From: Nitratiruptor sp. SB155-2
GTDB lineage: Bacteria > Campylobacterota > Campylobacteria > Campylobacterales > Nitratiruptoraceae
Direction of reading: 5' to 3'
Assembly: GCF_000010325.1 (NCBI RefSeq)
Contig: NC_009662.1
Coordinates: 310,001 to 374,000, forward strand
Length of the DNA: 64,000 nt
Below the pieces are notes generated by a model. It was not told where the DNA came from and made no database searches. It saw only the letters and a list, made by a program, of their open reading frames with translations. The number at the start of each line of letters is the position of its first letter. Position 1 is the stretch's first letter. The position numbers and the translations under genes were made by a program. This document shows, one piece after another, positions 5,388-8,334 of this stretch.

Positions 5388-6210
5388 ACTGGAAAAACTG
5401 GCTTTCAAATTGACCAAAAAATCGATGCAAAAAGAGCAGTTTTTTGGGCTTTTGCAAAATCTTTTTGGCATGTTTGAAGATCCTCAAATTATTTATGAAA
5501 CACTCAAAGCCAGAGGATTCCCTTTGGATGAAAAAGAGAATACAATTTTTTTGAAAACAGCGATAACGCCATACCAAGAGCAGGAATTTGTCGTTGTCGA
5601 TATAGAGACAAACGGGAGTAAACCAGAGTTTTCTCAAGTGATCGAGATAGGAGCCATCAAATTCAAAGGCAATACAATCATTGATCGTTTCGAGAGTTTT
5701 ATCTATGCCGAGGATGTTCCGGAGTATATCAGTAAATTGACCGGCATCCTTCAAGAGGATCTGGAAAATGCACCATCTCAAAAAGAGGTGCTGCTTTCGT
5801 TTAAAGAGTTTTTACAAGATGCTGTTTTTGTTGCACACAATGTACGTTTCGACTACAATTTTATTTCAAGTAAACTGGAACAGCTCGGTTTGGAAAAATT
5901 GGCCAATAGAAAGCTTTGTTCCATCGATCTGGCAAGAAAAACGATTGAGAGTGAACGTTACGGGTTGGAGTTTCTCAATGAGACACTCGGCATCAATACG
6001 GCTGTGAGCCATCGGGCATATGCTGATGCGTTAACGGCGTATAAAATTTTACAAATGTCCTTTGAAAAACTGCCAAATGAAGTGAAATCGACAGAGGATT
6101 TGATCAAATTTAGCAAAAGTGCGAAACGAAAAAAAGTGAAAAAGACTACAAAACTTTCTGAATCAACTTTGCCCCAAGCAGATCCCCCCAGTTGTTCACA
6201 GCAGTCCTGA
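5380..6210 (+). CDS. DnaQ-family 3'-5' exonuclease
   Basis: The central and C-terminal part (about residues 68-235) is a DEDDh exonuclease: Exo I VVDIETNG, Exo II AHNVRFDYNF and Exo III HRAYADALTAY. This is the fold of the DNA polymerase III proofreading subunit. About 65 residues precede the domain, rich in Lys and Phe, and a basic tail follows. In Campylobacterota such proteins are annotated as polymerase III epsilon subunit or as an exonuclease; whether it binds the polymerase cannot be seen here. The TTG start overlaps trpF by 8 bases. Its last 65 bases overlap the convergent symporter gene. Confidence 0.85.
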   Translation: MNKLEKLAFKLTKKSMQKEQFFGLLQNLFGMFEDPQIIYETLKARGFPLDEKENTIFLKTAITPYQEQEFVVVDIETNGSKPEFSQVIEIGAIKFKGNTIIDRFESFIYAEDVPEYISKLTGILQEDLENAPSQKEVLLSFKEFLQDAVFVAHNVRFDYNFISSKLEQLGLEKLANRKLCSIDLARKTIESERYGLEFLNETLGINTAVSHRAYADALTAYKILQMSFEKLPNEVKSTEDLIKFSKSAKRKKVKKTTKLSESTLPQADPPSCSQQS

Positions 6211-7342
6211 ACATATCCAAAAAGCGATCAACGGTAATGATGAGCGCTATGGCTTCAACAGGGAGTCCTACACTGTCAAGCACCATTGTCATCATAATGA
6301 GTCCTGCTCCCGGAATCCCAGCCGCTCCGATAGAAGCGAAAGTGACGGTGATGAATATGGTGATTTGCTGAGCCAGACTTAATTCTACCCCGCTGATATT
6401 TGCGATGAACAGAACTGCAATCGATTCATACAGAGCAGTTCCATCCATGTTGATAGTGGCTCCCAGTGGTAAAACGAATCCAGCTACTTTTTTACTCACC
6501 CCTCCTTTTTCTTCTGCAACTTCAAGACTGACAGGAAGTGTTGCAGAGCTTGAAGCAGTAGAAAAGGCGATCAAAGGTGCCTCTTTTATCTGAAGAAAAT
6601 AGCGATATGGGTTAAATCTTCCAACGAAATATCCAATGGATGGGAGGGTGACAAGAGCATGAAACATTAAAGCCAGAAGAACCGTTAATACATAGCTGTA
6701 TAGCTCAAAAATCGGTTCCAATCCATTCTTGGCTACCGTTGCCGCAATGAGAAAAAAGACACCAATCGGTGTTAAAGCGATAACCCATCTTGCAAGAACC
6801 ATCATCGCATCATTGATACTATCAAAGAAGTTGTAGAGCACTGTTCGTTTCGTTTGTTGAATAAAAAGAGCGGCTACTGCGAAAAGAATCGTAAAAAAGA
6901 TGATTGGCAAGATTGCTCCTTTGCTCAATGCTTCAAAGATATTGGCTGGAATAAAGGAGAGCAAAAAGTCCGAGAGTGAGAGCTCTTTTTTTTCGATCGT
7001 TACATTTTGCGGAATTTGCAAGAGGTGTTCGCCGGAACCTGGATTGATAAGATGAAAGATAACGATTCCAAGTAACACTGCGAGAGCAGTCGTACTCAGA
7101 TAATACAAAAAGGCTTTTACTCCAATGGACTTGAGTTCCTCTTTACCACTCAAAGAGGCAATAGCGATAAATATAGAAGCAAATACCAAAGGAATGATAA
7201 GCATTTTTAGAAGTTTTAGATAGATATCTCCAACTGCTTTGAGTTCAGTTGAGAGAGCAGGGAAGAAGTAACCAAAGGCGATCCCTGCTCCAATAGCAAT
7301 GAGTGTGAGATTTTCTACGCTAAATAGCTTTTTACGAGCCAT
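6146..7342 (-). CDS. dicarboxylate/amino acid:cation symporter (GltP/DctA type)
   Basis: This 398-residue membrane protein belongs to the DAACS (SLC1) family, which imports glutamate, aspartate or C4-dicarboxylates with protons or sodium. Family signatures are SSSATLPVSLE near the first re-entrant hairpin and PLGATINMDGTALYE, the NMDGT unwound helix that binds substrate and cation. Eight or so hydrophobic segments are visible. The start at 7342 gives MARKKLFSVE; an upstream in-frame extension lies inside the preceding gene and is not hydrophobic. The start overlaps the deformylase-like gene by 28 bases, so the two are translationally linked. Substrate cannot be assigned. Confidence 0.9.
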   Translation of the reverse strand: MARKKLFSVENLTLIAIGAGIAFGYFFPALSTELKAVGDIYLKLLKMLIIPLVFASIFIAIASLSGKEELKSIGVKAFLYYLSTTALAVLLGIVIFHLINPGSGEHLLQIPQNVTIEKKELSLSDFLLSFIPANIFEALSKGAILPIIFFTILFAVAALFIQQTKRTVLYNFFDSINDAMMVLARWVIALTPIGVFFLIAATVAKNGLEPIFELYSYVLTVLLALMFHALVTLPSIGYFVGRFNPYRYFLQIKEAPLIAFSTASSSATLPVSLEVAEEKGGVSKKVAGFVLPLGATINMDGTALYESIAVLFIANISGVELSLAQQITIFITVTFASIGAAGIPGAGLIMMTMVLDSVGLPVEAIALIITVDRFLDMFRTAVNNWGDLLGAKLIQKVL

Positions 7343-8115
7343 GAGCCTCCATACAGAATGAGAATAGCAGCGAGATAGATGGCGCTTGTTCCAAAAACGT
7401 TTGCTCCCTGGCATGAAGTACAATTTTTATATTTTGTAGTTTCATATTTTGCGTACAGAGCAAAAACAATGAGCCATATGAACTCTATGAAAAAAAGTAA
7501 CGTGTTGTACGTCAAAACGAATTTTGCAAAATTTGCAAAAGTAGAGAGGATGAGCAAGATAAAATGACCTACTAAAAAAAGGCGCAGCGCTGTTAAGATT
7601 CTATCTTTTATGAAATAGGTAGGACAGGTGTCTCCATAACTACCATACTCTTTGAAAAACTTTTTCTGCTCCTTTTTTGAGAGCTTATCAAACAGGTACC
7701 CGCCAAATACCATATCGATCTTTCGCTGAAGCAGGACCGCTTCATCATCTTTGGCTGTATAGAATTTTTGGTTGCCTTGAAGATCTTCGTACATGACTTT
7801 TATAACAGGATAGCGCTGGACGGTTACTTCTATGTTTGGTAAACTCTCATCACTCTCCGTTGAAGCGAAATATTGCCCCTCTTTGCCGTAGATTGTTGGG
7901 TTGATCATTACTTCATAGGTGCCATCTTTCTTTTTCAGAACAATAATGCGTAGAGGTTCGCCGATTTGGATAGCGGCTAGTGCCTGGAGGTTGTTCTCTT
8001 CAATTGTCTTTTTTATCTCTTCGACGATTTCATTGATTTTTGGATCTTTAAAATCTCGAATAAGACCAGAAATTTGCAATAGTGTATGGTCAGGATAAGT
8101 TAGAATCTTTGCCAT
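7315..8115 (-). CDS. peptide-deformylase-like pseudoenzyme with membrane segments
   Basis: Residues 1 to about 155 align along their whole length with peptide deformylase: ILTYPDHTL at the N-terminus, LQALAAIQIG where active enzymes have GxGLAAxQxG, VMINPTI, DESLPNI in place of EGCLS, and LLQRKIDMVFGGYLFDKL in place of QHExDHxxGxLFxD. The metal-binding Cys, both His of HExxH and the catalytic Glu are all absent. After residue 170 come three hydrophobic segments (roughly 174-192, 200-222, 243-262) with a CTSC pair at 232-235. The protein is 266 residues; the ATG at 8115 has AAAAGGAA upstream. It cannot be an ordinary deformylase; a binding or scaffolding role is inference. It lies in the sqr operon. 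Confidence 0.75.
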   Translation of the reverse strand: MAKILTYPDHTLLQISGLIRDFKDPKINEIVEEIKKTIEENNLQALAAIQIGEPLRIIVLKKKDGTYEVMINPTIYGKEGQYFASTESDESLPNIEVTVQRYPVIKVMYEDLQGNQKFYTAKDDEAVLLQRKIDMVFGGYLFDKLSKKEQKKFFKEYGSYGDTCPTYFIKDRILTALRLFLVGHFILLILSTFANFAKFVLTYNTLLFFIEFIWLIVFALYAKYETTKYKNCTSCQGANVFGTSAIYLAAILILYGGSWLVKSYLA

Positions 8116-8135: not shown

Positions 8136-8150
8136 AGGGGCGAAGCCCCT
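8136..8150 (-). terminator. GC-rich hairpin between the 59-residue gene and the deformylase-like gene
   Basis: AGGGGC and GCCCCT form a 6-bp stem around a 3-base loop, four bases after the upstream stop. There is no T tract on the minus strand, so it more likely pauses or processes the sqr operon transcript, lowering expression of the genes beyond it, than ends it fully. Confidence 0.35.
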
Positions 8151-8154
8151 CGTT

Positions 8155-8334
8155 TTAATGGTGAGATTTAGAAACGACTGCCAACATTTTGAGGTTGATG
8201 ATGATAAATCTGATAAATTGCCAGATTTTGCATGTTCTTAAAAACCTTTGGAAAGGCCCTGGAATCATTGTTCCGTATGTTTTGTCGTCGTATGGTTTGA
8301 TGTTTTTTTGAACGTCTAAATAATCTTTTGCCAT
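8155..8334 (-). CDS. 59-residue membrane-associated protein next to sqr
   Basis: This short frame reads MAKDYLDVQKNIKPYDD at the N-terminus and continues through MIPGPFQRF to a basic hydrophobic segment around residues 36-53, ending SKSHH. The ATG has a strong site, AAAGGAG, 5 bases upstream, and the stop precedes a hairpin. The gap from the sqr stop is only 15 bases, so it is the second gene of the sqr operon. I recognise no domain. The hydrophobic stretch, rich in Ile and Phe and flanked by Arg and Lys, suggests association with the membrane and perhaps with Sqr, which is a membrane-bound enzyme. The reading frame is secure; the function is not known. Confidence 0.7.
   Translation of the reverse strand: MAKDYLDVQKNIKPYDDKTYGTMIPGPFQRFLRTCKIWQFIRFIIINLKMLAVVSKSHH

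Follow-up and report, generated by a model that had tools for sequence, protein, structure and literature searches.

A membrane protein with a peptide deformylase fold but no metal ligands, tied to one kind of sulfide:quinone reductase in Campylobacterota

Peptide deformylases (PDFs) are the enzymes that trim newly made proteins, and their Type 1 representatives (Def), including the Helicobacter pylori enzyme of structures 2ew5 and 2ew7, are among the closest known counterparts of the protein described here. Inactive members of this family already exist: the Type 3 PDFs of archaea and trypanosomatid mitochondria have been described as mostly weakly active or inactive, with substitutions in crucial motif residues (PMC5591237), a trait that our protein shares, so that a dead PDF would not be new by itself. 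Type 3 PDFs nevertheless come from other taxa, and the description of them consulted mentions no membrane helices, conserved cysteines or linkage to sqr (PMC5591237). For sulfide:quinone reductases (SQRs), the second family concerned, Types I and IV have been reported as one clade (PMC4584964).

We analysed a stretch of 64,000 nucleotides (the window) from the genome of Nitratiruptor sp. SB155-2, which is complete and consists of one contig of 1,877,931 bases. It encodes, behind an sqr gene and a gene for a small protein, a 266-aa protein (hereafter the pseudo-deformylase) that shares with Type 1 PDFs the same fold over residues 1-157, the structural residues and ~ 30% identity, but differs from them in having neither metal ligands nor catalytic Glu, in its altered motif I, in the three membrane helices with a CxxC that follow the PDF domain, and in its linkage to sqr, whereas the intact def of the same genome is linked to clpP. 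Our search of the open literature, by which subscription journals are mostly uncovered, returned no paper on a PDF pseudoenzyme or an sqr-adjacent deformylase. The membrane module with its three conserved cysteines, the strict tie to one kind of SQR, the small partner and the hairpin are what we consider new.

Table 1. Features of the sqr/pseudo-deformylase locus, in window coordinates
Feature	Position	Strand	Basis or remark
Sodium:dicarboxylate symporter (SDF) family gene	6146..7342	-	28-nt overlap with the 3' end of the pseudo-deformylase gene
Pseudo-deformylase membrane protein (P0001), 266 aa	7315..8115	-	Open reading frame, PF01327 and predicted structure
Membrane helix 3, residues 236-265 (model helix 230-265)	7321..7410	-	AlphaFold2 model
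CxxC (CTSC, residues 232-235), then near-invariant Gln236	7411..7422	-	86/87 homologues
Membrane helix 2, residues 204-228	7432..7506	-	AlphaFold2 model
Membrane helix 1, residues 169-190	7546..7611	-	AlphaFold2 model
Cys164, directly before the first membrane helix	7624..7626	-	Conserved, 84/87 homologues
PDF-fold domain, residues 1-155	7651..8115	-	PF01327 over residues 1-150; Z 24.1 to 2ew7
Motif III equivalent QRKIDM, residues 130-135	7711..7728	-	Both His and catalytic Glu replaced; Asp134 retained
Motif II equivalent ESDESLP, residues 87-93	7837..7857	-	Asp89 at the Cys ligand position; Glu87 retained
Intercistronic hairpin, AGGGGCTTCGCCCCT on the minus strand	8136..8150	-	Folding against shuffles
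Unnamed 59-aa protein (P0002), between sqr and pseudo-deformylase	8155..8334	-	Hydrophobic motif RTCxxWQFIRFIIINxKM..VVxKSH
Sulfide:quinone reductase (SQR), 491 aa	8350..9825	-	Sequence similarity; no signal peptide visible

Deformylase fold, metal site and distribution

The initial annotation of this gene, whose reading frame, strand and coordinates proved correct, had aligned its N-terminal part end to end with PDFs. This alignment was confirmed by the Pfam profile PF01327, which covers residues 1-150 end to end (126 bits, E 1.3e-36); the NCBIfam PDF models scored far under their cut-offs (e.g. 67 bits against 190), as expected of a divergent non-enzyme. An AlphaFold2 model of the 266-aa protein, built on a 65-row alignment, reached a pLDDT of 92.3 and a pTM of 0.70, and its residues 1-157 matched H. 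pylori PDF 2ew7 in VIA-align with a Z of 24.1 and an rmsd of 2.1 over 155 residues (30% identity), in agreement with Foldseek. Profile, model and structure comparison all give the deformylase fold.

Screening 397 Campylobacterota genomes yielded 87 full-length homologues in 79 of them, separated from the ordinary def genes by a clear score gap; with homologues down to ~ 30% identity, the gene is no product of chance. The maximum-likelihood tree of the PDF domain, which also included 20 def sequences of Campylobacterota and three from outgroups, placed all pseudo-deformylases on one side of a single branch with a support of 100/100, for which one origin would be the simplest reading. A scan across GTDB confirmed 198 loci, of which the best 80 all bore titles of Campylobacterota (Nitratiruptor, Sulfurimonas, Sulfurovum, Sulfuricurvum, Nitratifractor and others), and on these best 80 loci a restriction of the clade to this phylum appears likely, although not proven.

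The catalytic motifs are altered throughout this clade. Motif I, GxGxAAxQ in PDFs, reads LQALAAIQ in the Nitratiruptor protein, and among the 87 homologues its first Gly has become Leu or Ile in 80 and its second Gly Ala in 59, while Gln50 is retained in 80. For motif II (EGCxS, here ESDES), the register initially proposed was off by two, since ESDESLP aligns with EGCLSVP: the loss of the Cys stands, but the residue replacing it is Asp89 instead of Ser, and the Glu of the motif (E87) is retained and invariant (87/87). The Cys itself is substituted in all 87 homologues, by Thr (59), Ser (17), Asp (10) or Asn (1). In motif III, the replacement of HExDH by RKIDM was correctly recognized; the first His position holds Arg in 72 homologues, Gln in 10 and His in 5, the catalytic Glu position Lys in 69, Gln in 13 and other residues in 5 but never Glu, and the second His position Tyr in 64, Met and Phe in 10 each, Ile in 2 and Leu in 1. 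The loss of all three metal ligands (Cys and both His) and of the catalytic Glu therefore survives the realignment, and no homologue retains more than one of the three ligands. Ligands hidden elsewhere by a misalignment were also considered and rejected, because the realigned Cys site is Asp89 (Thr or Ser in most homologues) and no homologue has two ligands.

The old metal site looks like an altered site under selection rather than one in decay. Its commonest quartet, T/R/K/Y, occurs in 55/87 homologues, its replacement residues are conserved above ~ 70-80% of the columns of the domain, and E87, R101 and D134 are invariant, with Q130 present in 86/87. Over whole genes, dN/dS of the close pairs computed was ~ 0.02-0.2, with dS saturated in some pairs, and one value for the C-terminal part was 0.27. 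Two readings are thus scarcely credible, deformylase activity supported by other ligands and decay as a pseudogene: the open reading frames and low dN/dS speak against decay, and against activity stand the clade-wide disappearance of the metal site and general base and the intact def, with EGCLS and HEMDH and a clpP-like gene upstream of it, found elsewhere in the genome by the search that had been proposed for it. Activity is favoured by public annotation, which names as 'peptide deformylase' a Sulfurovum mangrovi copy with an FAD-dependent oxidoreductase and a hypothetical protein of 53 aa upstream. A plasmid copy of Sulfurovum mangrovi (locus L263, 2713-3528) is annotated as two 'peptide deformylase' pieces, a possible frameshift.

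The retention of Gln50 in most homologues leaves room for ligand binding of some kind, and with the fold, and with SQR and small protein both devoid of a signal peptide by eye, it speaks for a domain that would capture nascent SQR or small protein at the membrane by the formylated N-terminus without cleaving it. We consider this quite improbable, given that the residues of motifs I and II that hold the substrate backbone are altered in most homologues and that bulky charged residues stand in place of the metal and Glu. The initial suggestion of binding to nascent or other formyl-methionine peptides likewise gained no positive support from a protein in which motif I is altered, motif II replaced and the metal site occupied by Arg, Lys and Tyr. 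An extended version, in which the dead deformylase would hold the formylated N-terminus of new SQR or small protein at the membrane, shield it from the real deformylase and so guide the signal-less flavoprotein to its place, is a long shot; if true, an enzyme of translation would have become a chaperone that helps a respiratory enzyme to insert into the membrane.

The membrane module and its cysteines

The three hydrophobic segments and the CxxC pair that had been noticed behind the PDF domain are real, and correspond to three modelled helices and to Cys232 and Cys235; Cys164 adds a third conserved cysteine. The only homologue without CxxC has a sequence that ends at a contig end, and the three homologues without Cys164 are all copies located away from sqr. 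The lack of a signal peptide and the charge pattern suggest a cytoplasmic PDF domain, and with three membrane crossings all three cysteines would then face the cytoplasm.

Predicted alone, the module reached a pLDDT of 90.9. Searches of Pfam and NCBIfam brought up nothing beyond weak, scattered similarities for it, and a Foldseek comparison of the module alone with the PDB returned no match below E 3, which does not in itself make it a new fold. One genome (G217) encodes a three-helix CxxC module without PDF domain directly after the small protein, from which the membrane module can apparently serve the sqr/small-protein unit alone. At locus L215 (5668-5964), the stand-alone 98-aa three-helix CxxC membrane protein without PDF domain lies right after the small protein.

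Linkage to one kind of SQR

The partner SQR is identified by its similarity to disulfide-reductase-type flavoproteins with conserved Cys. Its best solved match is the Aquifex aeolicus SQR 3hyv (E 5e-38), to which two cysteines align (SVCT/SICT and CQGAAFE/CFGPAYE), the third lying past the alignment end. It resembles the Type I and Type IV SQRs (3hyv; PMC4584964) in sequence, but differs from them in its greater length, its insertions and the conserved small protein that follows it. From its breadth and the common clade of Types I and IV (PMC4584964), it may be a Type IV enzyme.

The survey of Campylobacterota that had been called for ties the two genes closely, as all 79 genomes with a pseudo-deformylase carry this one kind of SQR. 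The pseudo-deformylase was never found without it (0 genomes), 32 genomes had the SQR alone and 286 had neither, so that 286 of the 318 genomes lacking the pseudo-deformylase also lack an SQR of the partner kind (Fisher p 1e-57, a value that ignores shared ancestry). The adjacency to sqr first seen in Nitratiruptor, with sqr directly upstream, extends to 71 of the 87 copies, which follow sqr directly in the same orientation at a distance of 203-559 bp; the other 16 are not beside sqr. The overlap with the transporter gene is also genuine and includes the transporter's ATG, but a general link is not, the transporter being confined to Nitratiruptor-type loci; a functional tie to it was rejected for this reason.

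Between sqr and pseudo-deformylase, the small protein (about 52-67 aa across loci) is encoded in at least 70 of the 71 sqr-linked pseudo-deformylase loci and in 40/40 SQR loci without an adjacent pseudo-deformylase. Both this protein and the hairpin that follows its gene had been overlooked in the initial annotation. The presence of the small protein in both kinds of loci designates it and sqr as the core, to which the pseudo-deformylase adds a third, clade-restricted component. With no match in Pfam or NCBIfam, the small protein may be a partner that accompanies this kind of SQR in general. Since 32 genomes contain SQR and small protein without the pseudo-deformylase, the latter is dispensable for SQR as such, although a few of these may reflect assembly gaps.

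A few bases past the small protein stop begins an RNA hairpin whose position is conserved and whose sequence is not. When 55 bases of this region were folded in the 71 linked loci and compared with dinucleotide shuffles, the mean z was -3.39, with 50 loci below -2, whereas the two control regions, within sqr and behind the pseudo-deformylase, gave 0.04 and -0.42. The hairpin is also present at SQR loci lacking a pseudo-deformylase (mean z -2.77). Because a T-run accompanies it in only 12/71 loci, most of these hairpins are not classical terminators; the hairpin would rather mark the 3' end of the sqr/small-protein transcript or stabilise it, and the pseudo-deformylase would then be represented by less mRNA.

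This arrangement weighs on the possibility that the pseudo-deformylase joins SQR and the small protein in a membrane complex as a structural subunit in stoichiometric amount, to which its dead PDF domain would contribute no more than a rigid element. The conserved gene order and a distribution strictly nested in that of SQR are what such a subunit would show, but the structured hairpin separating it from the other two genes suggests unequal amounts, and its absence from the 32 SQR genomes and the 16 unlinked copies argue further against a role that we judge rather unlikely.

Gene neighbourhoods vary. Histidine-kinase-like and response-regulator-like genes occur near many sqr-linked copies. Among the copies away from sqr (L062, L067, L044, L047, L049 and L117), MerR-type regulators and AhpD-like (CMD) proteins are found nearby, with DsrE-like proteins near two of them. 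Family f5 (L200, L201, L202, L203, L217 and L228) has sqr, the small protein and then a thioredoxin-like gene, with, by eye, a thioredoxin-reductase-like gene further on.

Such neighbours recall a redox or sulfane-sulfur sensor or carrier. At the cytoplasmic membrane face, Cys164 and the CxxC would be the site of reaction with (poly)sulfide or of metal binding, with the PDF domain relaying a signal or holding an anionic ligand in its Arg/Lys/Tyr pocket. The regulatory, AhpD-like and DsrE-like genes near unlinked paralogues, the two-component-like genes near linked ones and the thioredoxin-like and thioredoxin-reductase-like genes of family f5 all point in this direction, as do the near-invariance of the cysteines (Cys164 84/87, CxxC 86/87) and the T/R/K/Y quartet (55/87). 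The changing neighbours and a membrane module that belongs to no known family count against it, and overall we find it unlikely.

Proposed role and significance

The central idea of the initial annotation, a deformylase-derived membrane pseudoenzyme tied to sulfide oxidation, is upheld by the fold, the clade-wide loss of the metal site, purifying selection, co-occurrence and operon linkage. Its occurrence only in genomes with one kind of SQR, usually beside sqr, makes the protein a probable SQR helper and not a deformylase. For its function, a non-catalytic accessory factor of this SQR, helping its placement or assembly or tuning it, is the explanation to which we give about an even chance of being right; the 32 genomes with SQR and small protein but no pseudo-deformylase and the 16 copies unlinked to sqr weigh against it.

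As such an accessory factor, the protein would have arisen from a PDF paralogue that lost its metal site once, acquired a membrane module of three helices and conserved cysteines, and came to be recruited behind the sqr and small-protein unit. The dead domain would most likely act as a binding domain on the cytoplasmic face, while the membrane part, with Cys164 and Cys232/Cys235 as a possibly redox- or metal-responsive site, would position the protein beside the SQR module. It is probably less abundant than SQR, as the RNA hairpin between their genes suggests, and its most likely task would be to help place, assemble or tune SQR and its small partner in the membrane. The periplasmic face is considered the site of action of some SQRs; with a PDF domain predicted on the cytoplasmic side, contact with SQR would have to take place inside the membrane or precede the placement of SQR.

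Some of the 'peptide deformylase' annotations in Campylobacterota genomes are probably wrong. More broadly, SQR is one point at which sulfide enters the respiration of Campylobacterota from vents and sediments, and its mode of action is still unresolved in several respects (PMC4584964). The module of sqr, small protein, hairpin and pseudo-deformylase provides a source of candidate partners for one kind of SQR, and the pseudo-deformylase is a clear example of how a housekeeping enzyme of translation became, on a single occasion, a conserved non-enzyme of the membrane.
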